Source: Chloroflexota bacterium (GTDB taxonomy: Bacteria > Chloroflexota > Anaerolineae > Promineifilales > Promineifilaceae). Taken from it: a stretch of 25,305 bases of DNA. How positions within the stretch are numbered: the stretch's first letter is position 1; every line of letters begins with the position of its first letter. The notes beneath the pieces are model-generated. The model had not been told where the DNA came from. It saw only the letters and a program-made list of their open reading frames with translations, and did not search any database. Positions 1,557 through 19,321 of this stretch are shown here, piece by piece. The DNA lies in contig JAAEOP010000251.1 in assembly GCA_024223125.1 (NCBI GenBank), positions 1 to 25,305 on the forward strand, given 5' to 3'. Position numbers and translations under genes: made by a program.

Positions 1557-4538
1557 TCACGAGATAGAAATGCTGGAGCCAGACGGCCGTTTCTCAACCT
1601 CAATGCGAGTCGGGAAGGCATCCCGTAGCTCATCAATGTGGGTGATTACCAGAATCACTTTGAAATCTTTCTGAATGGTGTTAATCGCTTCAACCAGACG
1701 TTGACGGCCGATAGGATCTTGACTGCCAAACCCTTCATCCACCACCAATGTTTGCAGCCGCGCTCCGGCTCGTTTAGCCAACACCTGCGAAAGCGCCAAC
1801 CGGATGGCAAAGTTAACCCGGAACTGTTCACCACCACTAAAATTGCTGTATGGTCGTTCGCCAGCATTATCCACAATGCGAATATCCAACGTTTCTGCCA
1901 GCGCATCACGGGTTTTTAGCTGGCGCTGTGTGTCGAAGATGACTCGCATTTGGCCGTCGGTCAGACGGTCGAGCAGTTCATTGGCTCGGTCTTCAATTTC
2001 GGGCAGCGTCTGTTCAATCAACAAGGCCTGCACCCCATTACGGCCGCATGCTTTTTCCAGCACCTTCAACCGTTGAATCTGAAGAGTGGTTTCGCTGCGT
2101 TCGCTGTGCAGGTGTGTTTGGCGGCGACGTAAATCATCCAAAACATCCAGCCGTTGTTGGGCGGCTCCTACTTTACGGTTAGCTCTGATTTCTTCTTCAC
2201 GCAGGTTTTGAACCGCATCCTCAATCTGGTTGAGATTGCCGCCATCCTGAGTAAGTATTTCTAATTCAGTCACGACCGTATCGTGCTGCTGCTGTGTGTC
2301 AGCCACCAATGATTTTTGCTCGGTAATCTGTTGCTGCTGGTCAGCCAGACTATCGGTCAATGGTTTTAGGGCAGCCATGGCTTGTTGCAACTGCTGCTGT
2401 TTTTCAGGCGCATCTGCCAGAGTATCACGGGCAGTAATGGCGGCTTGATGATCGGTTTCATTGTAGGCGACGGCCGTTAACTGCGCCTCCAAATCGGCCA
2501 ATGCAGTTTGCGCTTCGGGGGCATAGTCACTCGTTTCAAGCTGCTGTTGGACGGTCGTACGTTCAGCCTGCCCTTCATCTTCCCAGACCGTAATCAGGCG
2601 CTTGGTTTCTGTAAGCCGGGCTTCGTCGCGGGCGATTTGCTGTTGGGCGGCGTGGCGTTCTTTTTCCAGGGCTGTTTTTTGGGCGACGGCCGTTTCCAGT
2701 TCCGCCACTTCTGTTTTTAGTTGTTGGATGGGAGCCTGGTTGGCCATGGCCGTTTCCAATTCTACCAACCGTTTAGCCCCTTCCGCTTCCCACTCGGCCG
2801 CTGCTTGTTCAATTTCATCCAGACGGGCAACGGCTCTGGCTTTGCGGTCTCGTTGGGTTTGTTCTTGTTGTTCCAATTTGGGTTTGGCTTTCAGACGGCC
2901 GTCCAGCGCCGCCACTTCCGCGCTCAACGTTTCAATCTGGGCTGCATTCTCACGAAACTCGTCCCCCATTTGGCTGCCTTCTTGCTTTAATTCGGCTAAC
3001 ACTTTTTGGCGATGATCGGCCGTTAACGGTTGCCCGCACAAGGGACAACTACTGCCCGTTTCCACAGAAAGCTGATCCAGTCGCTCTTTGTGCTTTTTCA
3101 TTTGCTGACGCAGGTTGGGCTGCCATCTTTGCAAGGTGTCCCGGTCAGCCATTTTCGTCAGGTAGGTTTGATTGACGGTTGCTAAAGTAGCGATTTCGGC
3201 GGCCACATTAACCAGCGTTGTCTCTGCTTCTTGCAAATTTTTGGAAACGGCCGTTTGCTCTTTTTTCATTTTCTCGATTTGCCGGGTACGGGTTTTTAAC
3301 TGTCCCACCTCTTTTTGTTGTAGAGCTAAATCCCCCTGGCGCTGTTGTAATTCAGCTCGCAGTATCTGGTATTCATTTTCTTGGCCAGCCAGAGCTTGCA
3401 AGCTTTCCTCAAAGGTTTGTAGTTGGGTTTGATTAACGCTGATAGTAGTGGCGAGGGTTTCTTTTTCGGCCGCGGCCGCGGCAGCCGCTTGCTCTTGTTT
3501 GCCTAGTTCACGCAGCCGCTGTTCCCGGCGGGATATTTCTTGGGTGAGAGTGAGTTCATACGGCCGTTTGGCCTGCTGCAAACGATTGTACGTGTTCCCC
3601 TTTTCCTGCCAGCTTTGCACGGCATTGTCAGTTTTCTGCCAGGCAGAAAAGGCAACAGCAATCTCGTCAGCCTGATCCACAATTATCTGGTACGCGGCCT
3701 GTTCTTTTTCCCGTTGTGCATGAGTGTTCTGTAATTTGGTCAGGGTATGGCGGGCACGGGTCAGGTTGGCAGCCAGGGTTTGTACATTTTTTTTCTGCTG
3801 GGCAATGGCGGCCGCTATCCGGCGCATCTGTTCCAAAATGGCTTGTTTATCGGCCAGACGGGTAGCGATGGCAGTGTGGCCTTCCTGGGCTGATTGCAAA
3901 GCAGCTTGGCGTATTTCTGCTTCGTTCAACTCCGCTTCGATTTCGCTCAACTGCCCATCTAAAAGGAACAGTTGCCCTTCTTCTTCTTTGCGCCGGGCAG
4001 AAGCTAACTCTTTGTAACTGTCCCAAATATTTAAGCCTAACAAATCGGCCAAAACTTCTTTCCGTTTGTTGGCCGTTTTGGTGGTGAATTCATCTGCTTT
4101 ACCTTGCAGTAAAAAGCTGGCATTGATGAAGGTATCGTAGTTCATTCGCAGCAGCTTTTCAATTTCAGTCTGAGTTTCGCGTACTTTGCTTTCAGTGAGG
4201 GCTTTCCAATGCTCGTTTTCGCCCTGTATTTGCAGTTCAAGCCGGGTGGCTTTGGACGACCGTTTACGCCGCGATACTCGATACGTTGTGTTTTCCAAGG
4301 CAAATGTAAAACGCACCTCGGCGCCATCTCCATTTGCGGCCGCCATCCGGTTGACTAGATCATCATCGCTTTTGCTGCGACTTTTGCCAAAGAGAGCGTA
4401 AGTCATGCCATCCAAAATGCTGGATTTGCCCGCCCCGTTTGCCCCAGAAATACAGGCCAGATGGATGCCGTCAAATTGGAGTACGGCCGTGTCCCGGTAA
4501 GAAAGAAAATTTGTTAGTTCTAGTTTAAGTGGAATCAT
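1557..4538 (-). CDS. sbcC: SbcC exonuclease subunit (SMC/Rad50-like ATPase)
   Basis: 993 aa, normal for SbcC/Rad50. The N-terminal Walker A is GANGAGKSS (about residues 32-40). Long Gln/Glu/Ala-rich coiled coils flank a central zinc hook, CPLC, with cysteines at about 498 and 501, almost exactly mid-protein. The C-terminal lobe has the ABC signature FSGGEQ (about 900) and Walker B LVVDEG (about 931-936). With SbcD it forms an ATP-driven nuclease that opens and trims DNA ends and cleaves hairpins and palindromes. The start ATG gives the expected short N-terminus (MIPLKLELTNFLSY). Normally sbcD and sbcC abut or overlap; here about 880 bp of decayed gene and repeats separate them. Several CGGCCG palindromes lie in the coiled-coil region, including a tandem pair near 3470 encoding an Ala run. 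Confidence 0.96.
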   Translation of the reverse strand: MIPLKLELTNFLSYRDTAVLQFDGIHLACISGANGAGKSSILDGMTYALFGKSRSKSDDDLVNRMAAANGDGAEVRFTFALENTTYRVSRRKRSSKATRLELQIQGENEHWKALTESKVRETQTEIEKLLRMNYDTFINASFLLQGKADEFTTKTANKRKEVLADLLGLNIWDSYKELASARRKEEEGQLFLLDGQLSEIEAELNEAEIRQAALQSAQEGHTAIATRLADKQAILEQMRRIAAAIAQQKKNVQTLAANLTRARHTLTKLQNTHAQREKEQAAYQIIVDQADEIAVAFSAWQKTDNAVQSWQEKGNTYNRLQQAKRPYELTLTQEISRREQRLRELGKQEQAAAAAAAEKETLATTISVNQTQLQTFEESLQALAGQENEYQILRAELQQRQGDLALQQKEVGQLKTRTRQIEKMKKEQTAVSKNLQEAETTLVNVAAEIATLATVNQTYLTKMADRDTLQRWQPNLRQQMKKHKERLDQLSVETGSSCPLCGQPLTADHRQKVLAELKQEGSQMGDEFRENAAQIETLSAEVAALDGRLKAKPKLEQQEQTQRDRKARAVARLDEIEQAAAEWEAEGAKRLVELETAMANQAPIQQLKTEVAELETAVAQKTALEKERHAAQQQIARDEARLTETKRLITVWEDEGQAERTTVQQQLETSDYAPEAQTALADLEAQLTAVAYNETDHQAAITARDTLADAPEKQQQLQQAMAALKPLTDSLADQQQQITEQKSLVADTQQQHDTVVTELEILTQDGGNLNQIEDAVQNLREEEIRANRKVGAAQQRLDVLDDLRRRQTHLHSERSETTLQIQRLKVLEKACGRNGVQALLIEQTLPEIEDRANELLDRLTDGQMRVIFDTQRQLKTRDALAETLDIRIVDNAGERPYSNFSGGEQFRVNFAIRLALSQVLAKRAGARLQTLVVDEGFGSQDPIGRQRLVEAINTIQKDFKVILVITHIDELRDAFPTRIEVEKRPSGSSISIS

Positions 4539-5269: not shown

Positions 5270-5392
5270 ATCAGATGATCATAAGTGTTAACTTAAGCGA
5301 AGACCTCGCAGGTTTTAACGCAAAACCTCAGAGGGGCGTAGATCATTTTGGAAACCTGCGAGGTCTTAAGTTAACGACAATGATCAGATGAT
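5270..5392. mobile_element. MITE-like element B (103 bp) with 10-bp direct repeats
   Basis: A long near-palindrome: the left arm 5287-5316 and the right arm 5352-5375 share GTTAACTTAAG and AGACCTCGCAGGTTT, the left arm carrying 5 extra bases. The putative element 5280-5382 begins CAT and ends ATG. It is flanked by the perfect 10-bp direct repeat ATCAGATGAT at 5270-5279 and 5383-5392. CAT ends and a duplication of about 10 bp recall some IS4-family groups; that parentage is inference. It carries no gene. Confidence 0.65.
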
Positions 5393-5416: not shown

Positions 5417-6652
5417 TCATTTATCGGCGAAGACTGCCAGCGCCAAAGCTTGCATAGCCTGTGCCTCATCCGCTTCCATGCCGATGGTGTCCCAATACGT
5501 TTCCAACAATTGTTCTGGCGTCATTTCCTCTACGGCCGCCGTATCCCCCAGACGAGACCGTTTTTCCACCAGATGATGTTTGCGAATATGGACTTCAAAC
5601 GCATTTTGCAGATGGTCGTAAATCGCTTTATCATCCAGCAGCGGCTCCTGATCGCGGGGATAGGTCAGGCGGACGCGGCAGATGGCGTCTGTTACCGCAT
5701 CGGCCGCGGGAAGCTGACTGAGAATGTCGGCCATAAAGCTGTCGGCCGAGGGGGTGATGGGATCGGGGTCTATAAAGCGGCGGGTTTGCAGTTCGCAGAA
5801 TTCCCAACTGGTGTGGCCTTTATTGATTTCGGCCAATACAAACCCTTTCTTTTCCCGTACTTCGCCAAAATCTATGCGTTCAATGGAGCCGGGATAAACG
5901 ACGGGTGGATGGGAACCGGCCTCGTTAAGCGCCTGGTGTTTGTGAATATGCCCCAGGGCGACATAGTCCAGCCGGTTATCCTTTACCAGCCGTCCGCTGA
6001 TGACCAATTCCTGACCTAGCATGACAGCTCGTTCGCTGCCAAATTTAGCTCCCTGTACACTGGCGTGGGCGGTAAGGATAAGGGGGATGTTGGGATCGGC
6101 CGTTTCCAAAAACCGTTCTACCCGCTTTTCAATTTGCTCTTCAATGTAAGCGTACACATCATCGGCCGATAGACCGGCAATCTCTTCACGGGTCACAAAG
6201 CGACTGCGCGATACCCAGGGAATGGTGATGATCTGTACTGGTACGCCCAGTTCTTCCGGCGACCATAAACGCACAGTGTCGGCTACATGAATGTAGGGTA
6301 CGTCGAGGGTGCTAAATTCGTGCATGGTGTGCGCCCGGCCGCTGGCAGGTGCGACATCATGGTTGCCCACCAGCAGCAAGGTGGGGATTCCAGCCTGAGA
6401 AAGGCGCATCATGCGGCGACCCCATTCTCGTTGAAAGGTGGGTTGGGGATTGCGATCTTTGTAAGCGTCTCCGGCAAAGATAACCAGGTTTACAGCTTCA
6501 GACACGGCCGTGTCCACAATCTGGTCCAGCGCCTGTAAAAAGTCCATTACGCGCATGGGTAGGGCGGTGGTGGGATCGTGACGGCCGTAGTTGGCCATGT
6601 CAATATGCGCGTCGGCAAAATGACATATCCGCACAGGTTTCGTGGTAGACAT
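5417..6652 (-). CDS. sbcD: SbcD exonuclease subunit (Mre11-like phosphoesterase)
   Basis: 411 aa calcineurin-like metallophosphoesterase. The metal-binding motifs are in order: HFADAHID near the N-terminus, FAGDAYKDRNP, VGNHD (about residue 97), LTAHASVQG and ALGHIHKHQ, followed by the SbcD-typical YPGSIERIDFGE. This is the nuclease subunit that pairs with SbcC for double-strand-end processing and hairpin cleavage. The ATG at 6652 is preceded by a good ribosome site (GAGGAAA). It is upstream of sbcC on the same strand, the normal order, but the EEP pseudogene and several repeats lie between them, so co-transcription would have to run through that region. Confidence 0.95.
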   Translation of the reverse strand: MSTTKPVRICHFADAHIDMANYGRHDPTTALPMRVMDFLQALDQIVDTAVSEAVNLVIFAGDAYKDRNPQPTFQREWGRRMMRLSQAGIPTLLLVGNHDVAPASGRAHTMHEFSTLDVPYIHVADTVRLWSPEELGVPVQIITIPWVSRSRFVTREEIAGLSADDVYAYIEEQIEKRVERFLETADPNIPLILTAHASVQGAKFGSERAVMLGQELVISGRLVKDNRLDYVALGHIHKHQALNEAGSHPPVVYPGSIERIDFGEVREKKGFVLAEINKGHTSWEFCELQTRRFIDPDPITPSADSFMADILSQLPAADAVTDAICRVRLTYPRDQEPLLDDKAIYDHLQNAFEVHIRKHHLVEKRSRLGDTAAVEEMTPEQLLETYWDTIGMEADEAQAMQALALAVFADK

Positions 6653-6878
6653 ATTTCCTCGCTGTCAAATGATCATTTACAGTAACATAAAACTTGTCAA
6701 ACGACTTGCTTAGTTGCTAGCGTCAACACTCTCTAGCGATAGTTTATTCTCACGGGTAACTCGAATTAAAAACCGCAGAGCTTCATTCACTGAAAGCACA
6801 GGGTAGCACAAAATTTGGCAGATTGGTTTATTTGTTTTGTAATCTGATAGATGAAGTACTCAACGGTCGTTTCCTATT
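6653..6878 (-). pseudogene. Intergenic stretch with possible RelB/DinJ-like antitoxin remnant
   Basis: This gap between sbcD and the miniature element has no intact gene. On the minus strand, 6710-6795 reads LSVNEALRFLIRV, then TRENKLSLESVDASN and a stop. The pattern resembles the C-terminal end of RelB/DinJ-type antitoxins (S-x-NEAIR-x-FL). The frame runs back only to a stop near 6855 with no credible start codon or N-terminal half, so it would be a relic. The resemblance is weak and rests on recall. Nothing else was recognised here. Confidence 0.3.
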
Positions 6879-6886
6879 AAAATTTA

Positions 6887-6979
6887 GTAACTGTACAGGT
6901 GCGACGCACTTTTCCCAGAGTAATGTCAATGCCGCTGCTCTTTGCAAGTGCGTCGCACCTCTGGAAGCTAAATAGTTAC
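6887..6979. mobile_element. Miniature inverted-repeat element A, copy 1 (93 bp)
   Basis: Ends are GTAACT...AGTTAC. Just inside each end is a self-complementary block, AGGTGCGACGCACTT on the left and its complement on the right. A perfect 8-bp direct repeat AAAATTTA flanks it (6879-6886 and 6980-6987). It differs from copy 2 at only two positions and is inserted in the opposite orientation. The right target duplication contains the stop codon of the Kelch gene. Too short to encode a transposase. Confidence 0.9.
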
Positions 6980-6984
6980 AAAAT

Positions 6985-8973
6985 TTATTTGAGAACGCCT
7001 AACCGATAATACGAATCGTCTGATTGGCCTACAATTCGTTCTACCAAAATATAGTATCGACCAGTGGGGAGTGAATTGAGAGTGATGGTTTCATCCAGAT
7101 TGCCGGCATTATTGCTGCCTCCCAAAATCAACTTATTGTAATTAAACAGGTAAAGATCATAATCGCTGCCAGAGGGAATGTCCCGTAGTTTAGCTGTTAC
7201 TGTACCGCTGTTGTTAATGAAAAAGGTATAGAAGTTATAGAAGTCTGTACTTTCTTCATAATCCCCACCTACCCAATTATTCAACGATAGGGAGCGGGCG
7301 GTAGCTAGAGTGTTGTCTTCATCTGGGTAACCAGGTTTTAGGATAATAGGTAAAAAATAGGATTCTTTGGGTAACTCTAATTTTTGGGTGAGGGGTGAAA
7401 CGACATAATCTACCGTATTATGGCCGCCGGTTACATAAAGGCTGTTGTCTATAAATTCACCGCGCGGAAAAGCGCGGGATAGGACGGTATCGGGATCAAC
7501 CAGATCGAAGGGAATGTTCATGATCTGCCATTGGGGATTGGTAGAATTGGGGTCGTACACTTCAGTGGAAGCCACGGGCGTTCCATTCCCTCGAATACCA
7601 CCGAATACATACCAACGGCCGTCTTCATCTACCGCGCTGCCAGCCCCATATCGGGGAATGTTGAGAGACGGTATTGTTTGCCAGGAACTAAATGGTTTTA
7701 GACATTCCCCACCACCCAATAAAACACTCGAAGGGCTAATGCCGCCCACCACACAAACAGAATTCCCCAGTCTGGCTCCCGTGTGGCCAAAACGGCCGAT
7801 ATTTAGTGCAGGAGCTGGCAGCCAACTGTCTTGAGCCAGATTGTACTTCCAGGTATTGCTGATAACCTGAGCATTACTGGTTCCGAGTGGAGCCGTAATG
7901 CCGCCAATCAGATAATAGCCACTGTCGTCATTGGTAGGCACGGCCGCTGCCCAGCCGACGGGACCAACGGCCCCAACGTCCGTGGCCACAGGCGCACATT
8001 CTGGCCCTGAAGTGCAAGACAGATTGGAAAAAGACCAGGCGTCATTATTGACATCATAAACATAATGGGTTCTATCAAAGCCATTCAACGCATTGTTGTC
8101 GCCGCCAGGCACATAAATCTTACCTTTCAGATACACGGCCGACACATTGGTAACGCCTAACCCCGGCATTTGCGTCCTTTCTTCCCAGGTATTGCTTGCC
8201 GCGTAGTAACGATGAAGCGAATTGGACAATTGGGGCGATCCGGCCGCATTGGGCTGCCCGCCAATTAGAAACATCGTGTTATTGTCTGAGACAGTGGCGT
8301 GGTGGGTGCGCCCCGGAGCTAGTGAATTAGCTAAAGTCCATTGAGAAAGAATGGGCTGTGGTTCAATGAAGATATTAAGTGAGGTGTCGCCGGATACGCC
8401 TTGATTCCAGTCGGCCGTTACCACATAATAAGTAACCCCTTGCAGCACGGAGAAAGACAGTCTTGAACTAAAGCCAATAAAATCATCATTACAGGCAATG
8501 GCGGTCAGGCTACTGCATGAGCCGATGAAAACGCCTACAACCGTATCGTAATTGCTGGTTTGGGTGCTGATGTTGACAAGGCCGTTGGTCACGGCCGTAA
8601 ATTCATACCAGACTGTGCGATACCCTCTGTTTCGAGCGGGAGCGCCCCATATACAATCTAAAACCGGGTCTGAGGATGATTCGGTAAATGTCTCTACATT
8701 TTGCGTTTGCGCCCCGATGGGTTGGTTGGTGTAGGCAAAATCGGTGGCGTTGTCACAACTATCCCCCCCATCAGCCAACGGCGCAAATGGAGAAGCGTCC
8801 TGTTGGGGCGCATCAATGGGCGTCAGCCAAACAGATTGGGCGCCAGGCGGCAGTTGCAGCGGCGGCGCATAGATGCTCTGTTCATTTTTATCTACGGCCG
8901 CTTCCTGCGCGGCCGCTAACAAAGCCAACCCTAACAATAGTACCGGTATTAACAACAAAACGATTCGACGCAT
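6985..8973 (-). CDS. Secreted Kelch-repeat protein with PPC domains
   Basis: 662 aa. A signal peptide is obvious (RRIVLLLIPVLLLGLALLAAAQ). A PPC-like beta-sandwich domain covers about residues 70-205 (TVWYEFTA, YDTVVGVF, ACNDD, YYVVTADW). Kelch-type beta-propeller repeats cover about 215-540, with recurring GG turns and aromatic signatures such as MFLIGGQ, IYVPGGDN, YYLIGGI, VCVVGGI, WYVFGGI and LYVTGGH. The C-terminal domain, about 555-662, is again PPC-like (SDYDLYLFNYN, GRYYILVER). The protein is probably extracellular or cell-surface and binding rather than catalytic; no protease or oxidase residues were recognised. The ATG at 8973 follows AGAGGGG. Its stop codon lies in the target duplication of element A copy 1, with copy 2 upstream, so the gene is bracketed by inverted copies of one element. 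Confidence 0.88.
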   Translation of the reverse strand: MRRIVLLLIPVLLLGLALLAAAQEAAVDKNEQSIYAPPLQLPPGAQSVWLTPIDAPQQDASPFAPLADGGDSCDNATDFAYTNQPIGAQTQNVETFTESSSDPVLDCIWGAPARNRGYRTVWYEFTAVTNGLVNISTQTSNYDTVVGVFIGSCSSLTAIACNDDFIGFSSRLSFSVLQGVTYYVVTADWNQGVSGDTSLNIFIEPQPILSQWTLANSLAPGRTHHATVSDNNTMFLIGGQPNAAGSPQLSNSLHRYYAASNTWEERTQMPGLGVTNVSAVYLKGKIYVPGGDNNALNGFDRTHYVYDVNNDAWSFSNLSCTSGPECAPVATDVGAVGPVGWAAAVPTNDDSGYYLIGGITAPLGTSNAQVISNTWKYNLAQDSWLPAPALNIGRFGHTGARLGNSVCVVGGISPSSVLLGGGECLKPFSSWQTIPSLNIPRYGAGSAVDEDGRWYVFGGIRGNGTPVASTEVYDPNSTNPQWQIMNIPFDLVDPDTVLSRAFPRGEFIDNSLYVTGGHNTVDYVVSPLTQKLELPKESYFLPIILKPGYPDEDNTLATARSLSLNNWVGGDYEESTDFYNFYTFFINNSGTVTAKLRDIPSGSDYDLYLFNYNKLILGGSNNAGNLDETITLNSLPTGRYYILVERIVGQSDDSYYRLGVLK

Positions 8974-9044
8974 AAACCCCTCTTTCAGTGGTCAGTTTTT
9001 AGTGGTCAGTTTTCGGCCGTTAGCCATCAACGAATTGTACAAAG

Positions 9045-9080
9045 AAAAACGAGCAGACACCATTCTCGCGTCTGCTCGTT
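9045..9080 (-). terminator. Rho-independent terminator, minus strand
   Basis: Perfect 11-bp stem AACGAGCAGAC / GTCTGCTCGTT with an 11-nt loop. Read on the minus strand it is followed by TTTTT. It lies about 235 bp beyond the ileS stop, with repeats in between, and is the likely end of the ileS transcript. Confidence 0.75.
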
Positions 9081-9093
9081 CATCAAATAGACA

Positions 9094-9191
9094 TTATCGG
9101 AAATAACTTTTTTGATAGGATTAACACGATTAACTGGATGAAATAATCCTGTTAATCTCGTAAATCCTGTCTGATTTCTTATTTCCGATAA
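9094..9191. repeat. Inverted repeat with 13-bp perfect arms
   Basis: TTATCGGAAATAA (9094-9106) and its exact complement (9179-9191) enclose 72 bp with AATCCTGTTAATC-type satellite-like sequence. No target duplication was found. It may be another miniature element. Confidence 0.55.
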
Positions 9192-9203
9192 GGTTGAATA
9201 CAA

Positions 9204-9296
9204 GTAACTATTCAGCTTCCAGAGGTGCGACGCACTTGCAAAAAGCAGCGGCATTGACATTACTCTGGGAAAAGTGCGTCGCACCTGTACAGTTAC
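9204..9296. mobile_element. Miniature inverted-repeat element A, copy 2 (93 bp)
   Basis: The reverse complement of copy 1 with two mismatches over 93 bp. It is flanked by a different perfect 8-bp direct repeat, GAATACAA (9196-9203 and 9297-9304), so the boundaries are independently defined. It inserted 18 bp beyond the ileS stop codon. Confidence 0.9.
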
Positions 9297-9314
9297 GAAT
9301 ACAAAACTGTTGTG

Positions 9315-12300
9315 TTAACTGGCTTTACGCAAAGCCAAAGTAACGTCCTGATCGCCGACGGACACGGCCGTTTTGTATAACGCTTGATCCAATTTGCCTG
9401 TGACTAGATTCGTCGTCAATGTTTCTGCTGAAATGTAGTCACCAAAGGTGGCAAAAGCGGCCGTCACATCCCCCTCGGCTACATACGCCAATTCGATGCG
9501 ATCTGAAATTTCCAGACCGGCCTCTTTACGCATATTGTTCACATGACGGATGATATCCCGCGCATACCCTTCTTGCAGCAGGTCTGGTGTCAGTTCGGTG
9601 TCTACGGCTACGGTTACGCCTTTTCCGCTAGCAACGGCCGTACCCCCGCGAGATTCCGTCTGTACCAATACATCTTCACCAGTTAGAGACACCGTTTCGC
9701 CAGCCACATCCAGTTCAATCGTTTCGCCAGCCTGGACAGTGCGAGCGACATCGGTCGGATCAAGTGCGTTCAGGGCATTTCTTACCTTGGGGAACAAGCG
9801 GCCAAATTTCGGCCCCAAAACCCGATTGTTAGGCAAAATCTTGTAATTCACCAATTTACCCACTTCAGAGACCACTTCTATTTCTTTCACATTGATCTCT
9901 TCCATCAATACATCCCGCAGTTCACGCAAATCATCCCGCGCCTGTTTACGGCCGACATTGACCCGTGCTTTGGCTAACGGTTGGCGCAGTTTAATATCGG
10001 CCGACGCCCGCGCAGCCCGCCCTAAACTTGCCGTTGTGATCGCCAGCCGCATCTTGTTCAGCAGCTGCCGGTCCAAAGCAGCTTCATTCGCCGCCGGATA
10101 AAAGGTGTGATGTACACTCGTAGGCGCATTTGCATCTACGCTACCCACCAGATTTTGGTAAATTGCTTCCGTGGTAAAAGGAATGAATGGGGCCAGTAAT
10201 TTAACGAATTCAACCAACACATGATGCAGGGTGGCATAAGCGGCATTTTTGTCAGCATCTGCCTCGCTCTTCCAAAAGCGGCGCCGCGACCGGCGCACAT
10301 ACCAATTGCTCAAATCATCCAGATATGCTTCCAAATGCCGCGTCGCCTTTTCGGCGTCATAAACATCTAACGCCGTCCGAACCGCCAGCGTCGTCTCTGC
10401 CAGCCGTTCTACTATCCAACTATCCATCTGTGCGTTGGCAGAGATTGGAGATTCAATCTCTAATCTCCGATCTCCAATCTCCGGCTCCCAGCCATCTAAA
10501 TTCGCATACGACACAAAAAACGAATATACATTCCACAGCGGAATGAGGAAACGGCGGCGGGTGTCGTCGCCAATGTGGTAACCGAAGCGCAGGTTTTGCT
10601 CTGGTTTGCAACTGGCATAGAGCCAGCGCATCGTGTCCGCGCCCATTTTGTCGGCCGCTTCGTTGAACTCGATCATGTTGCCCCAGGATTTGTGCATTTC
10701 ACGGCCGTCTTCCGCCATCAACGTACTATAACCAAACAAATTCTTAAACGGGCCAACCCCATCGGCCATCAACGTGCTTTGGGCCAGCAAACTGTAGAAC
10801 CAGTTGCGGAATTGGCCGGGAAAACTTTCGCTAATCCAATCGGCCGGATACCATTTCTGCCAATAGTCATGATCTGTGCTGTAATGGATGGTGCTGATGC
10901 CCACAATACCGGCATCCAGCCAGGGGTCGCCCACATCTTTAATCCGTTCCACCGGCTCACCGCAGTTGGGACAGGCGATCTTGACCGCATCAATATACGG
11001 CCGATGGGGTGTGTGACCTTCAAAAGCATCCCAACCTTCAATCGCCCGTTCTTGCAATTCTTCCCGACTGCCGACCACATGGAAATGATCACATTCCTGA
11101 CATTCATAGATGGGCAGCGCCAGACCGTAATACCGCTTTTTGCTGATCATCCAGTCGTGCATATTTCGCAGCCAATCCATTTCCCGGTCATAACCAAAGC
11201 CGGGATACCAGTTTGCCTGGTCTACGGAATCCATGATCTGGTAGCGGAAACTGGCGGCTTTTTCTACGGCCGTCACTTCGCTGCGCGGCTTGTCATATAG
11301 GTCGCCCATATTGATAAACCACTCGTCCACGAGCCGGTACACTAGCTCGCTGCCACAGCGCCAGCAATGCGGGTAACGGTGGGAATATCGTTGTTTACGA
11401 TAATATGTCCCTTTCTCACGCATATTTTCAAAAATATCCGCGGCCACATCATGAGCGGAACGGCCGCTCAACCAATCAAAACCAGCTTCATAAATACCAT
11501 TCTCATCCAAAGGGGCAATAACAGGCAGATTGTTTTCCTTGCTCAGTTCAAAGTCCTCCGCACCGCAGCCGGGCGCAATGTGGACAATACCTGTCCCTTC
11601 ATCAGCTCCCACTTCCTTCCAGGAGATGACACGATGGGTGTAGTTGTTTTCGGCAAATGCGTGGGTGACTGCCGGTAAATTGTCAAAAGGCCCGCTGTAT
11701 TCCCAACCCAGCATTTCTTCCCCTTTTAGCCTATCCACCACTTCATATTTACCGATGAGCGACTGTTTGAGCGCTTCTTCGGCCAGGTAATATGTCCAGC
11801 CATCTTCGGCTTTAACTTTAGCGTATGTTAATTCGGGGCCGACGGCCGCGGCCACATTACTCGTCAATGTCCAGGGCGTTGTTGTCCAGACCAGCAGCGC
11901 TTCCTTTTCCAAAACCCGAAGGGTCTCTGAAGACCCTTCGGGTTTAGAGACGAGCGGGAAACGCACAAACACAGACTCATGAGTTACTTCCTGGTAGCCC
12001 TCAGTCACAATCTCGTGCTGACTGATGCCGGTTCCGCAGCGGGCACACCAGGGCATCACATCCCGCCCTTTATACATCCAGCCGCGATCAAAAATTTTCT
12101 TCAGGTAGCTCCAGATTTGATAATTGTTCTCATCGCTAAAGGTGAAGTAAGAGCCACCCATTTGGGGCATACCTAACTGTCCCACCACTTGCTCTACTGT
12201 GCCGCTGATTGGCCCGTCAACCCCCTGCACAGTCACAGGTTGCAGCGGGTCTTCTTCCATCAGATCGCGTAGATGGCGCAGCGTAGCCGGGTCGTTCCAA

Positions 12301-12743
12301 TCCATCCAGTAGCCCAGCCGTTGGGATTGTTCTGTTTGCACGGCCGAAAAATTGAGTACTTGAAGTTTGCATTCGGCCGTGAATTTTTCCAGACCAAACT
12401 TTTCGATTTCTCGTTTGCTGTTGAAGCCCAGTCGCTTTTCTACATTGACTTCCACCCACAAACCCTGGCAGTCAAACCCATTTTGCCAGCGCAGGTTTTT
12501 GCCTTGCATCGCCTGGTAACGCTGGTACAAATCTTTGTAGGTGCGTCCCCAGGCATGGTGGGCGCCCATGGGATTGTTGGCGGTGATGGGGCCGTCTATA
12601 AAGCTAAAGATGCCATGTTCAGCTTCGGATTCAGCCCGCAGGCGGCGTAGTTCATTGAAGGCGTCAGTTTCTTGCCAAAATTGTAATATTTCTTGTTCCA
12701 ACTGGACGAAACTCACTTTGTTGGAAACGTCTTTAAAAGGCAT
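9315..12743 (-). CDS. ileS: Isoleucyl-tRNA synthetase
   Basis: 1142 aa class I synthetase that charges tRNA-Ile. Seen in order: the N-terminal catalytic segment with TANNPMGAHHAWG in place of the HIGH region, the editing domain (LLVWTTTPWTL), zinc-type cysteine pairs (CARCG, CWRCG, CQECD, CPNCG), the KMSKS region as MHKSWGN, an anticodon-binding domain, and a C-terminal extension (RASADIKLRQPL). Both signatures are altered (GAHH, MHKS). I recall this as a subfamily trait, so activity is assumed but unproven. Two palindromic repeats lie within the coding sequence (10441-10483, 11912-11945), adding residues between conserved blocks without breaking the frame. The ATG follows GAGGAG. No T-box precedes it directly, but it is the last gene of a run headed by a T-box. 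Confidence 0.93.
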   Translation of the reverse strand: MPFKDVSNKVSFVQLEQEILQFWQETDAFNELRRLRAESEAEHGIFSFIDGPITANNPMGAHHAWGRTYKDLYQRYQAMQGKNLRWQNGFDCQGLWVEVNVEKRLGFNSKREIEKFGLEKFTAECKLQVLNFSAVQTEQSQRLGYWMDWNDPATLRHLRDLMEEDPLQPVTVQGVDGPISGTVEQVVGQLGMPQMGGSYFTFSDENNYQIWSYLKKIFDRGWMYKGRDVMPWCARCGTGISQHEIVTEGYQEVTHESVFVRFPLVSKPEGSSETLRVLEKEALLVWTTTPWTLTSNVAAAVGPELTYAKVKAEDGWTYYLAEEALKQSLIGKYEVVDRLKGEEMLGWEYSGPFDNLPAVTHAFAENNYTHRVISWKEVGADEGTGIVHIAPGCGAEDFELSKENNLPVIAPLDENGIYEAGFDWLSGRSAHDVAADIFENMREKGTYYRKQRYSHRYPHCWRCGSELVYRLVDEWFINMGDLYDKPRSEVTAVEKAASFRYQIMDSVDQANWYPGFGYDREMDWLRNMHDWMISKKRYYGLALPIYECQECDHFHVVGSREELQERAIEGWDAFEGHTPHRPYIDAVKIACPNCGEPVERIKDVGDPWLDAGIVGISTIHYSTDHDYWQKWYPADWISESFPGQFRNWFYSLLAQSTLMADGVGPFKNLFGYSTLMAEDGREMHKSWGNMIEFNEAADKMGADTMRWLYASCKPEQNLRFGYHIGDDTRRRFLIPLWNVYSFFVSYANLDGWEPEIGDRRLEIESPISANAQMDSWIVERLAETTLAVRTALDVYDAEKATRHLEAYLDDLSNWYVRRSRRRFWKSEADADKNAAYATLHHVLVEFVKLLAPFIPFTTEAIYQNLVGSVDANAPTSVHHTFYPAANEAALDRQLLNKMRLAITTASLGRAARASADIKLRQPLAKARVNVGRKQARDDLRELRDVLMEEINVKEIEVVSEVGKLVNYKILPNNRVLGPKFGRLFPKVRNALNALDPTDVARTVQAGETIELDVAGETVSLTGEDVLVQTESRGGTAVASGKGVTVAVDTELTPDLLQEGYARDIIRHVNNMRKEAGLEISDRIELAYVAEGDVTAAFATFGDYISAETLTTNLVTGKLDQALYKTAVSVGDQDVTLALRKAS
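10441..10483. repeat. GAGATTGGAGATT palindromic repeat inside ileS
   Basis: The 13-mer GAGATTGGAGATT and opposing AATCTC/CCAATCTCC units form a hairpin. On the coding strand it is translated as a GDRRLEIES-like stretch between conserved IleRS blocks. The same 13-mer occurs at 14564-14576 and 19261-19273. Confidence 0.75.
11912..11945. repeat. Perfect 15-bp hairpin inside ileS
   Basis: Arms AAACCCGAAGGGTCT and AGACCCTTCGGGTTT with a 4-nt loop. Translated on the minus strand as SKPEGSSETLRVLE, just before the conserved LLVWTTTPWTL block where homologues are usually shorter. Confidence 0.75.
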
Positions 12744-12896
12744 GTTGTTTACTCCTCAAGCGCTAAGTGCGTTATTTTGTAATGGGGTGATTTGGTAATT
12801 GAGTAATTGGGTCATTCCCGACGACGGTGTGGTGGGGTACGGCCGTGTCGGGGCTGGTAATTCGACGTTCAAAAAGATGCATTAACATTTCTGACT

Positions 12897-13160
12897 TCAC
12901 TCTTGTGATTTTGCCTTCATTGGCTTATTAGGGAGGAATCTGAGTTCCTCCCTCTCTGTGCTAACTAACAGAAGTGTTGAAGCTGGCTCTGATTGCCAAA
13001 CTTCCTGTAATTTTTGTAACCCTTCATGGCGTGACTCAAACACCTCAACCATTTCAAAGTTGTCAATTATTTGATGATTTCGCTCATCAATGTGAGATTT
13101 TAGTGGTTCTATTAATAACCACTTGTTTGGGTATCGCTGACAGGTTGTTTGCCAGTTCAT
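12897..13160 (-). CDS. Small conserved-type protein, paralogue of the gene at 13578-13838
   Basis: 87 aa, no recognised domain, no signal peptide or membrane segment. It begins MNWQTTCQRYPNKWLLIEPL and ends with a beta-rich LLLVSTEREELRFL. It aligns along its whole length with the 86-aa protein two genes upstream (shared: N-terminal M-x-W-Q, R/K-x-YP-x-x-WLLIE, a central V..V/IDRY/VFES region, and a closing FHTDRPEL/VSTEREEL). AGGAATA precedes the ATG. It lies 37 bp downstream of the retropepsin gene. The sandwich arrangement suggests a functional set, such as a protease with two adaptor or substrate proteins, but that is inference. Confidence 0.75.
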   Translation of the reverse strand: MNWQTTCQRYPNKWLLIEPLKSHIDERNHQIIDNFEMVEVFESRHEGLQKLQEVWQSEPASTLLLVSTEREELRFLPNKPMKAKSQE

Positions 13161-13197
13161 GTCTATTCCTGGATTGACGGGTTTCTACGGCCGTCCA

Positions 13198-13581
13198 TCA
13201 CCCAGCCGCTCTAATCTCCATCGCCGTTAAATCAATCAACGCGCCAGTTTGCCGCAAAAAGTCAAACCCTAACAAGCCGTCAATAACAAAACCATAATTC
13301 ATTGCCCCTATATCCACAGAAAAATGTGCTATATGTAAATTCCCCACTTCAATTTTTTCGATGCGTTTGGCTACAACCGTTTCTGCCCCACCAACACCGC
13401 GTACTTGTTCAACAACATCATCAGATGCAAAGACAATGCCAAGCTGTAACAAATCATCCATCCGAAAAAGAGTTGTCGCAGAACCCGTATCAATGACCAC
13501 ATTTTCCAGGGTGATTGTTTTGCCATGATGGATCAATTTTGTAGAAACGTAAGGCAGTCCATCTTTAATTTCAATTTTCAT
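13198..13581 (-). CDS. Retropepsin-like aspartic protease
   Basis: 127 aa, one retropepsin lobe. The catalytic motif DTGSATT is at residues 31-37, preceded by the usual beta-strand (LENVVI), and the C-terminal psi-loop signature GLLGFDFL is followed by a LIDLTAMEI strand. With only one DTG motif, activity would require a homodimer, as in retroviral proteases. There is no signal peptide or transmembrane segment, so it is probably cytosolic. Its ATG overlaps the stop of the upstream small gene (ATGA at 13578-13581), which implies translational coupling. A paralogue of that small gene follows 37 bp downstream. The substrate is unknown; the two small neighbours are obvious candidates. The family call is strong, the role unknown. 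Confidence 0.85.
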   Translation of the reverse strand: MKIEIKDGLPYVSTKLIHHGKTITLENVVIDTGSATTLFRMDDLLQLGIVFASDDVVEQVRGVGGAETVVAKRIEKIEVGNLHIAHFSVDIGAMNYGFVIDGLLGFDFLRQTGALIDLTAMEIRAAG

Positions 13582-13838
13582 CGTATACCTCGAAGTCCTA
13601 ACCAGCGCTTGATAGTAATGTCCAATTCTGGGCGGTCTGTGTGAAACACAAACATTTCCCGATCTGGATTCTCTCGATGAGCTGCTGCGTAAGCCTGCCA
13701 GGCAGTCTGTCCGTCAAGATAACGGTCTATTACACTGATTTGATCAAGTACGCGCTTATCGTTTTCAGTATGAGCTTCAATAGCTTCAATCAACAGCCAC
13801 GTATCTGGATAAGTTTTACGAATGTCTTGCCATTTCAT
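13578..13838 (-). CDS. Small conserved-type protein coupled to retropepsin
   Basis: 86 aa (MKWQDIRKTYPDTWLLIEAI...), no known domain, soluble. It is paralogous to the 87-aa protein at 12897-13160 despite clear divergence, so the duplication is not recent. A strong ribosome site (GGAGGT) precedes the ATG. The stop overlaps the retropepsin start by 4 bp. I recall proteins with a YP-x-x-WVLIE N-terminus next to single-lobe aspartic proteases in cyanobacteria and Chloroflexota, but know of no assigned function. Confidence 0.78.
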   Translation of the reverse strand: MKWQDIRKTYPDTWLLIEAIEAHTENDKRVLDQISVIDRYLDGQTAWQAYAAAHRENPDREMFVFHTDRPELDITIKRWLGLRGIR

Positions 13839-13862
13839 TTTTTTGTACCTCCATACTCCAGT

Positions 13863-14549
13863 TTAATACCAGATGTAGCGGGTTTCAACGGCCGTTAACA
13901 TCCCCCCATCCACCATCTGCCGCTCCATCTGCACCGGCCAACCACGGCCGTCACGAGAAATTACCCGCACCTCATCCTGCCAACGCAGCATCCAAGGCAC
14001 AACCAGCGCCGTTTGCCGGCCGATTTTTATTTCTACCTGATCCGTAATCATCATCGAGCGGGTCAGATTAACTGGCTGCAAGGCAAGTGTGTTGTTTGTG
14101 CCGACCTGATTGTTGAGGGTCACGGCCGTACTCGTGCCCACCTTACCATCCAAAACCAAACCCAACCCAATCGTTGATGGAAACCAAAATAGCGTACCCG
14201 ATTCCACATCTAAATCCTCAGAATAAACATTCCCATTCACAGTTCGTGTTCCGGTAATATGCGTATCAGAAAAAAGTAATGTCCCTTCTATTTCTAATCC
14301 AGCGCCCCAAAAACGATACGCCAGCCGTTCTGGGGCGCTGCCTGCCCGCCGTACCAAATGATACAGATACGAATGTCCCGACACGGCCGCTCTTGCATCC
14401 AAATCCACCCGCAAAACTTCATACCCTTCCGTCGCTTGCGTTAGCCGCCATGTTTCCACCGCGCCAGTCGGCCGTCCAGCCAAATCATACCGGAACTGTC
14501 CGGCAGCGATTGGTTTCTCGTAATCCTGTTCGTGAACGATAAATCTCAT
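13863..14549 (-). CDS. Uncharacterised beta-rich protein
   Basis: 228 aa, not recognised. It starts MRFIVHEQDYEKPIAAG, has no signal peptide or membrane helix, and alternates short hydrophobic and polar stretches with many Gly and Thr residues, as in an all-beta fold. Similar outlines occur in proteins that store a measured or default value (lipocalin- or DUF3108-like), but I cannot assign it. No Shine-Dalgarno is visible: the bases just before the ATG belong to a GAGATTGGAGATT-type repeat that fills the gap to alaX. Same strand as its neighbours, 24 bp before the small-protein gene. Confidence 0.65.
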   Translation of the reverse strand: MRFIVHEQDYEKPIAAGQFRYDLAGRPTGAVETWRLTQATEGYEVLRVDLDARAAVSGHSYLYHLVRRAGSAPERLAYRFWGAGLEIEGTLLFSDTHITGTRTVNGNVYSEDLDVESGTLFWFPSTIGLGLVLDGKVGTSTAVTLNNQVGTNNTLALQPVNLTRSMMITDQVEIKIGRQTALVVPWMLRWQDEVRVISRDGRGWPVQMERQMVDGGMLTAVETRYIWY

Positions 14550-14614
14550 TGGAGATTGGTTATTGGAGATTGGAGATTGGGGTTGCGGTCACACAATCTC
14601 CCAATCTCTAATCT
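14550..14614. repeat. GAGATTGGAGATT-family repeat between alaX and the 228-aa gene
   Basis: Direct GGAGATTGG units on the left face inverted CAATCTC / TAATCTC units on the right, forming a hairpin. It occupies essentially the whole intergenic space. It belongs to the same family as the copies at 10441 and 19261. Confidence 0.75.
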
Positions 14615-15325
14615 CTACACATCCAGTTCAATATAAATTCGCTTGTTAATCTTGCCTTTGCTTTTGTAATTAGTGATTCGCATACGGCCGACTTCGTTTG
14701 TGTTTTTAACATGTGTGCCCCCATCCGCTTGCAAATCCAGTCCCACCAATTCTACCGTGCGTACCTCTTGAATTCCTTCTGGCAACAGGTTGATTTTGGT
14801 GCGAATCAGATCGGGAATTTGGAACGCTTCAGCGCGGGGTAGAATCTGGACTCGTGTTTCGCGGGCGGCCGTTACTTCTATATTTACCGCTGCTTCAATG
14901 TCGGCTACCAATTCCTGGCGCATCGTTTCAAATTCAAAATCCATACGCCCTTTCAGCGGGTTCATATTGCCACCCGTTACCGAAGCCCCATAGTCGCGCC
15001 AGACCACGCCACAGAGAATGTGCATGGCAGTGTGCGTCCGCATCAATTGGTAGCGTCGTTCCCAGTCGAGTTGTCCGGTCACGACCGTACCCACCACAGG
15101 CAGTTCCCCAACTACAAAATGCACCACTTTACCGCCCACCTTCTTCATCTTTGTCACATTCCAGGCCTGTTCCCCGACAGATAACGCACCATAGTCGCAT
15201 GGTTGACCGCCGCCTCCCGGATAAAACGCTGTTCGATCCAGCGTCACGCCACCTTCAACCTGTTCCGTCACGGCCGCCTCAAAGCTCTGCGCATACGCAT
15301 CTGTCAAATATAACAATTCACTCAT
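14615..15325 (-). CDS. alaX: AlaX-like trans-editing tRNA deacylase
   Basis: 236 aa, resembling the AlaRS editing domain freestanding as AlaX, which hydrolyses mischarged Ser- or Gly-tRNA-Ala. The N-terminal part has TAFYPGGGGQPCDYG. The zinc site shows RTHTAMHIL (HxxxH) and, near the C-terminus, DLQADGGTHVKNT. In most AlaX and AlaRS proteins the residue two before GTH is Cys (CGGTH); here it is Asp, so one metal ligand differs or this is a variant subfamily. The start ATG at 15325 follows GGAG by six bases and comes only 12 bp after the T-box terminator T-run, so expression is directly gated by that leader. It heads the minus-strand gene run that ends with ileS. Confidence 0.87.
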   Translation of the reverse strand: MSELLYLTDAYAQSFEAAVTEQVEGGVTLDRTAFYPGGGGQPCDYGALSVGEQAWNVTKMKKVGGKVVHFVVGELPVVGTVVTGQLDWERRYQLMRTHTAMHILCGVVWRDYGASVTGGNMNPLKGRMDFEFETMRQELVADIEAAVNIEVTAARETRVQILPRAEAFQIPDLIRTKINLLPEGIQEVRTVELVGLDLQADGGTHVKNTNEVGRMRITNYKSKGKINKRIYIELDV

Positions 15326-15337
15326 AACTCACTCCAT

Positions 15338-15673
15338 AAAAAAACGCCCTCATCCCATTATTGGGACGAAGGCGTTATATCTTCGCGGTACCACCCAAAT
15401 TTCTGGCTAGACCAGACACTTAGTTCAGCATCAGCCATTGCGAATGCTGCAATCCCGGTAACGAGGGATGAGTTCGTCTGAGCCTAATTTTCAGTGTACA
15501 GTTTGCAGTGCTCAGTAGATATGTCCGATTACTGATAACTGGAATTGTTCAGTCAGAAGCTCCGGAGGGATTTTCAATAACAGCCCCTTACCTGGCTTGC
15601 ACCATCCCAAGTTCGCTAAAAGAGGCACTGCCGTTTACTCGTCTCCATCTCAGCCTTTTATTTGTTAACTGTG
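15338..15673 (-). ncRNA. T-box riboswitch leader upstream of alaX
   Basis: The minus strand has the canonical T-box sequence GGGTGGTACCGCG (15384-15396). It is followed by a long terminator stem (15343-15376; AACGCC...GGCGTT with AUAA loop) and seven U (15338-15344). Upstream, a Stem I fold is visible: a GAUGGAG / CUCCGGAGC kink-turn region, an AGUA motif, and an opposing GAAAAUCC strand. By position the specifier would be AUC (15569-15571, Ile) or AAU. The UGGU bulge predicts a tRNA with discriminator A, which fits Ile (or Ala) and argues against Asn. The T-box call is firm; the specifier is a hand fold. Confidence 0.88.
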
Positions 15674-15679
15674 GGGGCG

Positions 15680-15708
15680 ATTATGCCAAAACGGCCGTAG
15701 CCTGTCAA
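15680..15708 (-). promoter_or_regulatory. Sigma70-type promoter for the T-box/alaX operon
   Basis: On the minus strand: TTGACA (15703-15708), a 17-bp spacer, CATAAT (15680-15685). Transcription would start near 15673, giving a leader of about 350 nt. Confidence 0.8.
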
Positions 15709-15716
15709 TGTGAACT

Positions 15717-15746
15717 TTGACAGCTTATCCAATAGTGAACTAAAAT
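15717..15746 (+). promoter_or_regulatory. Sigma70-type promoter for the 166-aa gene
   Basis: TTGACA (15717-15722), an 18-bp spacer, TAAAAT (15741-15746), 60 bp before the start codon. Its -35 box lies back to back with the opposite-strand -35, eight bases apart, making a compact divergent promoter. Confidence 0.75.
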
Positions 15747-15805
15747 GATGGTAAATGGTACTATCCACCATCCACCAATCACTATTTACAGAGGATTGTT
15801 TGTTT

Positions 15806-16306
15806 ATGTACCCAGAAGATCGTGTCCTGGTTGCCTATGTGCCCAAGCCATCGGACTTTGCACTCATTCAGCAAGACGGTTGGTATCGCATTCCCCAAAA
15901 ACACGCCCCCAAAGGATTGTATGCTGAATATTATGCTTTTTATTTCGGCCGTCTTTTTGGGGATGATAAATGGACGATCCAATATTTCGCAGCCCAAGAG
16001 GGACGCGAGCTTGTTACCCGGCGCTCCTTATTCCCCGATCAACCAAATCATTCCCGTGCGGATGATTTGTATTACAAAGTACAATTAGGACGGCTGCAAA
16101 CATTGCCACAGCCCATTGTCAGTCTACGCTGGCGGCGAATTACCTTTATTCATACCACCTGGGATCGCTTTCAAGATGCCAGAGAAGTCATTGATTTGTT
16201 TGTAGATGGAGGCGAATATGTTGACCGACTGTATGCCACCTTGAAAGATGGAGATGTGCAATCAGAGCGAAATTACCAGGTGAAGGAAGCAGGCAAACAT
16301 GACTAA
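15806..16306 (+). CDS. Conserved-type protein of unknown function
   Basis: 166 aa from ATG 15806 (MYPEDRVLVAYVPKP). The frame extends upstream to 15755, but AGAGGA lies about 11 bases before this ATG and the added residues look non-coding. No signal peptide or membrane segment. Rich in aromatic and basic residues, with blocks such as GWYRIP, ELVTRRSLFPD, ADDLYYKVQLG and RWRRITFI. The pattern matches a family I recall as uncharacterised in Chloroflexota and relatives; the YRIP...RRW layout suggests a nucleic-acid-related protein, but that is a guess. Transcribed divergently from the T-box operon by its own promoter; element A copy 3 lies 83 bp downstream. Confidence 0.78.
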   Translation: MYPEDRVLVAYVPKPSDFALIQQDGWYRIPQKHAPKGLYAEYYAFYFGRLFGDDKWTIQYFAAQEGRELVTRRSLFPDQPNHSRADDLYYKVQLGRLQTLPQPIVSLRWRRITFIHTTWDRFQDAREVIDLFVDGGEYVDRLYATLKDGDVQSERNYQVKEAGKHD

Positions 16307-16389
16307 TTTCCTATCATTCTTAGCCTATACAATGATCAAATCTACAAAAAAGTAACCGGGTTCTTAACCAAGAATTGCTAAAAATAAAA

Positions 16390-16478
16390 GGAATTATTCA
16401 GCGACCAGAAGTTAGACACACTGGCAACCAATAAAGTTGTACTAAATTACTCTGAAAAGTGCGTCGCACCTGGGTTAC
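16390..16478. mobile_element. Miniature inverted-repeat element A, copy 3 (89 bp, diverged)
   Basis: It aligns over its full length with copy 2: ATTCAGC near the left end, ATTACTCTG, then AAAAGTGCGTCGCACCTG and GGTTAC at the right. The left inner palindrome is degraded. It is flanked by a perfect 8-bp direct repeat AAATAAAA (16382-16389 and 16479-16486). The third distinct target duplication confirms independent insertion; the divergence shows it is older. Confidence 0.8.
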
Positions 16479-16538
16479 AAATAAAAAAGTTCTCTATCAA
16501 AAGCTGATCTTTTCAAATAGGCAATCCTCAACGATTAG

Positions 16539-19236: not shown

Positions 19237-19260
19237 AACCGAGAGCTAAATGGGTTTCAA

Positions 19261-19298
19261 GAGATTGGAGATTGGACGAATCTCTAATCTCCAATCTC
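19261..19298. repeat. GAGATTGGAGATT-family hairpin before the Ser/Thr kinase
   Basis: Perfect 13-bp arms at 19261-19273 and 19286-19298. It lies between ltaE and the kinase, about 14 bp upstream of the kinase ribosome site, and could form a hairpin in the leader. Confidence 0.8.
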
Positions 19299-19321
19299 AT
19301 ATCTCATTTCATGGAGGGATT

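Follow-up and report, generated by a model that had tools for sequence, protein, structure and literature searches.

The stretch of DNA analysed here (the window, 25,305 nucleotides of contig JAAEOP010000251.1 from the Chloroflexota assembly GCA_024223125.1) carries three copies of a short, non-coding element of 93, 93 and 89 bp, each flanked by an exact 8-bp direct repeat, which we examined as a candidate miniature inverted-repeat transposable element (MITE). A kelch-repeat gene on the minus strand (6985-8973) ends at copy 1, its stop codon being the last 3 bases of the right-hand duplication of the copy. Copy 2 is located 18 bp past the stop codon of ileS (9315-12743, minus strand), and copy 3 between two plus-strand genes.

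Copy 1 (6887..6979, 93 bp, ends GTAACTGTACAG and GTAACTATTTAG) lies on the minus strand and forms an inverted pair with copy 2 (9204..9296, 93 bp, plus strand, ends GTAACTATTCAG and GTAACTGTACAG). Once copy 1 was reverse-complemented, 91 of 93 positions were identical, the 2 differences falling at 9213 and 9243 in the numbering of copy 2. The terminal inverted repeats (TIRs) match at 9/12 and 10/12 positions between the ends of these two copies. The target duplications, which lie at three unrelated sites, are AAAATTTA for copy 1 (6879..6886 and 6980..6987), GAATACAA for copy 2 (9196..9203 and 9297..9304) and AAATAAAA for copy 3 (16382..16389 and 16479..16486); given the local base composition, an exact 8-bp match would arise by chance with a probability of 2-3e-5 for each copy. 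Two inner arms of 15 nt, AGGTGCGACGCACTT and AAGTGCGTCGCACCT, match exactly on the plus strand at 6897..6911 (left, AGGTGCGACGCACTT) and 6946..6960 (right, AAGTGCGTCGCACCT) in copy 1, and at 9223..9237 and 9272..9286 in copy 2.

Copy 3 (16390..16478, 89 bp, plus strand) is diverged, with 69 identities to copy 2 over 95 alignment columns. Its alignment score of 82 identifies it as a true relative of copy 2, since 1000 shuffles averaged -9.4 and never scored above 17. The left terminus has decayed to GGAAT in place of GTAAC and the left arm is degenerate, so that the sole intact arm is the right one (GTGCGTCGCAC; exact match to AAGTGCGTCGCACCT at 16457..16471, plus strand). The original prediction, made from the letters of the window, had placed the three copies and their duplications exactly where we find them and had counted the same two differences between copies 1 and 2. 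Its description of GTAAC/GTTAC ends and inner blocks common to all three holds for copies 1 and 2 and fails for copy 3, and its view of copy 3 as old is not supported: since the duplication around copy 3 is perfect, the divergence of that copy may be older than its insertion.

Scans of the window agreed with this picture. The 15-mer arm occurs five times exactly in the elements (2 in copy 1, 2 in copy 2 and 1 in copy 3). When as many as 3 mismatches were allowed, the 14-mer GGTGCGACGCACTT gave 11 matches, against a mean of 2.4 and a largest value of 7 in 100 shuffles; these are the five arms, each found again on the partner strand at 3 mismatches, and an unrelated match at 11551. A scan for GTAAC-type ends separated by 60-2500 bp, in which no more than 3/12 end mismatches were tolerated and the 8-bp duplication had to be exact, returned copies 1 and 2 only; copy 3 was missed because its left end has decayed. 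No transposase domain was detected in the 18 window open reading frames (ORFs) put through Pfam, out of 57 mechanical ORFs of at least 80 aa. Rfam, run at gathering thresholds, matched a T-box alone in the window and nothing at the element.

IS66 elements in related genomes

The three copies are very probably a MITE mobilised by an ISBst12-type transposase of the IS66 family that is encoded elsewhere, a reading whose evidence for the IS66 link was drawn from the genomes of relatives, not from that of the host. Searches with PF03050 over three overlapping genome sets matched 5/6, 2/17 and 21/52 genomes (20 of the 21 over the cut-off). In a search of 34 IS66 locus ids that presumed no end sequence but required the 8-bp duplication beside the ends to be exact, seven showed a perfect 12-bp TIR together with the duplication, six of them of the GTAAC...CAG type. 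All seven, 1.48-1.87 kb in length, were assigned to IS66 by Pfam. The TIR is GTAACTATACAG in L114 and L227, GTAACTACTCAG in L246, GTAACCGTTCAG in L115, L118 and L167 (NCBIfam above cut-off) and GTATCTTCTCAA in L168 (NCBIfam below cut-off); each element has one main ORF except L114, whose ORF runs in two overlapping frames. Among the 27 other locus ids are fragments cut off by the end of a contig and loci that match PF03050 only weakly. At 31 control loci (stretches of at least 3000 bp within L171-L210) the best end pair was no better than 2 mismatches.

A second end search covered 22 ids, with GTAAC-like starts presumed and duplication not demanded. It returned L226 (IS66 by Pfam, GTAACTATTCAG at both ends), L230 (TIR GTAACTACTAAG), L232 (TIR GTAAGCGTTCAG), L233 (1 mismatch) and L229 (2 mismatches), all without a duplication, as well as L244 (TIR GTAACTATACAG), whose right end is the end of the contig. 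In this search convincing ends were not found at L112, L113, L117, L228, L231, L234, L245, L247 and L248.

The ends of the window element recur on these insertion sequences. The left end of copy 2 equals the L226 end at 12/12 positions, and its right end matches those of L227, L244 and L114 at 11/12, or at 14/15 when one L227 end is extended by three bases. Full-length insertion sequences with GTAA-type ends in common with the element, for which the original prediction had proposed to look, were seen in the genomes of relatives. The end variants GTAACTATWCAG, GTAACTACTCAG, GTAACTACTAAG and GTAACCGTTCAG were each found both on IS66 elements and on MITEs with the 15-nt arms. The arm core, GTGCG[AT]CGCAC, was absent from all 34 IS66 locus ids scanned.

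The Chloroflexota IS66 elements look like ISBst12-type elements, an assignment made from their single ORF and similar ends rather than from a tree. ISDge4, which its authors place in the ISBst12 group, has the ends GTGACTACTCAGCA and GTAACTGCTCAGCA and an 8-bp repeat, and its transposition was seen (PMC12898284). This single-ORF group of IS66 resembles the window element in end type and in the 8-bp duplication, and most of the IS66 elements of the host's relatives have ends of the ISDge4-like type. The window element differs from the ISBst12 group in being 93 bp long, in lacking a transposase gene and in having only about 12-15 bp of ends in common, and from the IS66 elements in its inner 15-nt arms. 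The suggestion that GTAA ends with an 8-bp duplication reflect IS66-type transposition is supported by ends of the same kind and 8-bp duplications on relatives' IS66 elements, and is further backed by ISDge4 and by the related MITEs described below.

A MITE derived from a known family of insertion sequences is a known kind of element. MITEPsy1 (100 nt, IS5-like) and MITECca01 (IS982-derived) are bacterial examples that are short and non-coding like the window element and have TIRs in common with a full-length insertion sequence (PMC3189936, PMC9769881). Both come from families other than IS66, and MITEPsy1 also makes a target duplication, but one of 4 nt. No ISBst12-type MITE was found in the open literature searched (most subscription journals lie outside that scope), and the accessible parts of open-literature papers treating both IS66 and MITEs describe no IS66-derived MITE. 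The window element would tie a Chloroflexota MITE family to the apparent single-ORF ISBst12 branch of IS66.

As a mechanism, we propose that an ISBst12-type transposase encoded elsewhere would act in trans, binding ends of the form GTAACT(A/G)T(T/A)CAG and inserting the 93-bp element with an 8-bp duplication left behind. Such a transposase would be present in this genome now, or would have been formerly, and would have moved these copies.

Related arm-bearing elements and the choice of transposase

A search of genome contigs for the arm together with a GTTAC end gave 63 loci, of which 62 are titled Chloroflexota-type and one (L019) belongs to a Calditrichaeota metagenome-assembled genome (MAG). 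With the 93-bp DNA as query, matches were obtained in 5/18 genomes (E 0.001), 6/396 (E 1e-5) and 6/52 (E 1e-6), the sets overlapping; a 109-bp query had no match in plasmid, phage and E. coli collections. The best DNA match outside the window is at L107 in G226 (80% over 83/93 bases); this element is larger, has an exact duplication and carries an arm MITE close to one of its ends. Another locus of that genome, L222, holds a 93-bp element with the exact duplication GCTGGATG, and L108 (G147) has a duplication with 1 mismatch.

We collected 48 MITE candidates, each with a TIR-like sequence at either end and a pair of arms, picked irrespective of duplication; copies 1 and 2 of the window are included, and copy 3 is not because it has one arm only. 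An 8-bp duplication at no more than 1 mismatch was present in 19/48 (exact in 16), compared with 0-1 for shifted flanks (six shifts of 1-3 bases) and 0-1 for swapped flanks (five shuffles). By source, 8/24 candidates had it in isolate G576 (G017) and 11/24 elsewhere.

Several results weigh against the IS66 reading. Twenty-nine of the 48 candidates lack a duplication of their own, 16 of these coming from one MAG (G017). PF03050 was unmatched in 15/17 MAGs chosen for related MITEs or arms, among them G226, G147 and G255, which hold the most similar MITEs and were again without a match in the 52-genome set; this makes it less likely that each of the 15 houses a partner, although MAGs may miss repeats and could lack the gene for that reason. 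An intact IS66 element and a duplication-flanked arm MITE of identical ends were not shown to coexist in any genome examined, and a near-identical copy was not found in any other genome searched.

Among the duplication-less G017 copies, 11/16 have a flanking 8-mer that recurs exactly beside some other copy of that MAG, a count made without a control, as would be expected from recombination between copies or from misjoined contigs. Of the 8 listed shared flanking 8-mers of this type, one (L038-L111) links two different MAGs. The 13 candidates from outside G017 that lack a duplication comprise 9 with poor ends (at least 5/12 mismatches), which are probably not elements, and 4 with fair ends.

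The next explanation is a transposase of some other family, one that likewise leaves 8-bp duplications and whose GTAAC-type ends are a coincidence. Duplications of 8 bp are made by other families of insertion sequences too, and five MITE-bearing MAGs (G226, G147, G255, G388 and G017) have no PF03050 match. Against it stands the parallel between IS66 elements and arm MITEs in the four end variants named above, a set of ends sought, among transposase families, on IS66 elements. We regard this alternative as improbable and retain mobilisation by an IS66-family transposase.

The 15-nt palindromic arm

The 15-mer AGGTGCGACGCACTT was found in 69/396 genomes of the class, with a maximum of 66+64 (130 exact) in G119; the reversed-sequence control gave 0 in every row read except for one match in G091. 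It occurs 82 times in G003 and 47 times in the Calditrichota-labelled MAG G420, and not at all in G110 and G355; in the 20 stretches of G420 examined, the arms mostly come in pairs that span about 80 bp. At no more than 2 mismatches, the arm matches numbered 181 in G003, 218 in G007, 115 in G420 and 306 in G119 (controls 22, 6, 4 and 1). After subtraction of the control, exact copies make up 42-52% of these matches in the four genomes, a share that is biased because the genomes were picked for exact copies and the stretches fetched by exact arms. In viral contigs the bare 15-mer had 16 matches, and roughly that many or more would be expected by chance (a rough estimate from the size of the collection).

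Flanks were examined base by base in G003, G007, G057 and G420. The 42 flanks of G003 showed little conservation past the 15 nt, cores and flanks being unrelated, and in G007 the base adjoining the arm is A in 37/44 flanks. Loops differ among copies, which had been selected for intact arms. Two loci of G420 carry changes matched on both sides of the stem: at L288 two of three units pair AGGTGCCACGCACTT with AAGTGCGTGGCACCT, and at L286 AAGTGCGACGCACTT faces AAGTGCGTCGCACTT in the first unit; these are single examples and not a covariation test. At L277 and L288 of G420 the arm units also stand in tandem, three of them with a period of about 100 bp.

Perfect hairpins with a loop of up to 6 nt numbered 8-43 per genome in 6 of 8 chosen genomes. 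The tight ones, 33-34 nt long and present in several genomes, have the form AGGTGCGACGCACTT-N3/4-AAGTGCGTCGCACCT and the size of repetitive extragenic palindromic (REP) sequences. At L318, L328 and L329 of G119, neighbouring pairs of tight hairpins have the same loop, as in duplication of the kind known from bacterial interspersed mosaic elements (BIMEs). In G057 (L191-L203) some tight hairpins are nested in longer inverted repeats whose outer ends are of the GGTTC type, and TACAGGCT stands on both sides at L194.

We also asked whether the hairpins themselves carry the transposition signature. GT..AC with an exact 8-bp duplication was found at 0/82 tight hairpins and at 11/103 wide ones (controls at most 1), sets that may share a few elements. 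By set, the wide hairpins with the signature were 2/6 in G119, 0/12 in G003, 0/24 in G420, 0/4 in G211 and 9/57 at the class loci; of the two G119 matches, the one at L314 is bounded implausibly. The idea that the tight hairpins are themselves mobile and duplicate their targets was considered and rejected: the two flanks had a direct word of at least 8 in common at 8/76 hairpins, compared with 2-6 in five shuffles, and inverted flank words occurred at 7/76, compared with 4-6 in three shuffles. When GT..AC was not demanded, some sets still lay above their control mean (in brackets); the counts for tight hairpins were 4/15 (0.85) in G119, 2/11 (0.6) in G057, 1/9 (0.25) in G211 and 1/17 (0.2) at the class loci, and those for wide hairpins 6/24 (1.85) in G420, 2/4 (0.65) in G211, 1/12 (0.15) in G003 and 18/57 (2.6) at the class loci. 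Duplication with other ends may thus apply to some hairpins. Three of the G119 tight loci hold two hairpins side by side. Gene context by ORF length, taken for 43 tight hairpins, was too noisy for use.

The window element is best read as an MITE of IS66 type that encloses a distinct palindromic repeat, one that has no name. The inner arms match a palindrome scattered over the class; they most likely came in as cargo or were captured by IS66-type ends, so that the MITE may have taken up a pre-existing palindrome or grown around it. A bolder reading, somewhat less likely than not, is that the two 15-nt arms form a palindromic repeat system in its own right, found across phyla, in which the arms are kept while loop, core and flanks vary, and which has repeatedly been packaged in IS66-ended MITEs, the MITE being one vehicle for a separately maintained hairpin. 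Both the MITE, at its right end, and L227, at one of its ends, run on as CAGGTG, and the start of the arm, AGGTG, overlaps the IS66 end, which would offer a simple way for the palindrome to become joined to it. REPs placed within longer palindromic repeats have been reported (PMC3733652). The arm core sequence did not appear in any relevant paper of the open literature searched, the two papers containing it being unrelated to judge by their titles, nor did that search yield a report joining Anaerolineae with repetitive extragenic palindromic repeats. With the 15-nt arm exposed, the cause of its constancy becomes a testable question.

The tight hairpins, with their adjacent same-loop pairs, also invite the explanation that a REP- or BIME-like palindromic repeat was spread by a REP-associated tyrosine transposase (RAYT) and that the IS66-like ends are incidental. 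At L255 of G014, arm repeats lie on both sides of one Y1-transposase gene, with an arm hairpin at 1420-1452 just before the start of the gene and an arm at 2058-2072 just after its stop, as in REPtrons. However, this was seen at 1/17 Y1 loci only, and, unlike those of REP/RAYT systems, the arms showed no conserved tag beside them in the 42 flanks of G003, though the adjoining base is mostly A in G007, and enclose varying loops. Furthermore, all window copies have target duplications, and Y1 transposition leaves none. Spread by RAYT may apply to the arms but would not apply to the 93-bp element, for which we regard it as very improbable.

Genomic setting of the copies

The site of copy 2 was compared with the ileS loci of relatives. 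The ileS protein matched in 353/396 genomes of the class, and the closest are 82% identical (G372, G265), which would place the host at about family distance from those relatives. Ten ileS loci were compared; the kelch gene adjoins ileS in 7 of them (L213-L219), and 3 have no kelch match in the stretch examined. In the ileS-kelch interval of 7/7 relatives neither the element nor a match to the TIR pattern was present, and the arm-like matches in these loci, other than the one at L217 described below, fall outside the interval. The comparison of empty sites that the original prediction had proposed shows absence of copy 2 in the relatives and not a base-exact empty site.

The same interval bears on the weakest explanation, in which the element is a host-useful cassette near stop codons, serving as a transcription terminator or an mRNA 3' stabiliser. 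The positions of copies 1 and 2 at or just past stop codons favour it, as do RNA folds that beat shuffles (z of -4.6 for copy 1 on one strand, -3.2 and -3.8 for copy 2 on two strands) and a T-tailed hairpin directly after ileS at L217, whose stem, ahead of the T-run, contains GTGCGTTGCAC, a sequence that differs from the arm core at one base. However, the element is missing from that interval in all seven relatives, the copy 3 fold is at shuffle level on both strands (z -0.1 and -1.2), and several element-free relatives have, by eye, a T-rich hairpin directly 3' of the ileS stop. A scan of 6500-9600 for a G+C-rich stem followed by a T-run found nothing resembling a terminator at copy 1 or copy 2; it found a terminator-like hairpin at 9047-9081 (minus strand), beyond copy 2, although the region's total of 2 such sites does not exceed the 2.9 of shuffles. 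The earlier remark that the palindromic arms may act as a terminator is unsupported, a host function of the 93-bp element finds no support, and we consider the cassette the least likely of the explanations weighed.

The window has other features as well. Between copy 2 and the terminator-like hairpin there is a second inverted-repeat unit with TTATCGGAAATAA ends (9091-9194), an end found again in one locus (L251). Genes resembling sbcC (1557-4538) and sbcD (5417-6652) adjoin the palindromic copy 1; sbcC/sbcD encode a palindrome-cutting nuclease. An ORF at 4591-5232 matches just the first third of an endonuclease/exonuclease/phosphatase profile and is probably truncated or frameshifted, and an inverted repeat with AAACCTGCGAGGTCT arms (5270-5392) lies between sbcD and this short endonuclease/phosphatase-like ORF. 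Repeats of the GAGATTGGAGATTGG type occur at 10431-10482, 14541-14580 and 19250-19305, one of them within the ileS reading frame.

The palindromic octamer ACGGCCGT, which we take to be a HIP1-like iterated palindrome, occurs 27 times in the 25.3-kb window, where chance would give 0.4-0.7, and the relatives L211-L219 have it 95 times in 55 kb; no report of a highly iterated palindrome in Chloroflexi was found in the open literature searched. The T-box matched by Rfam (RF00230, 104 bits) is a leader at 15359-15660 on the minus strand; the gene at 14615-15325, which lies downstream of it, is alanyl-tRNA-editing-like.

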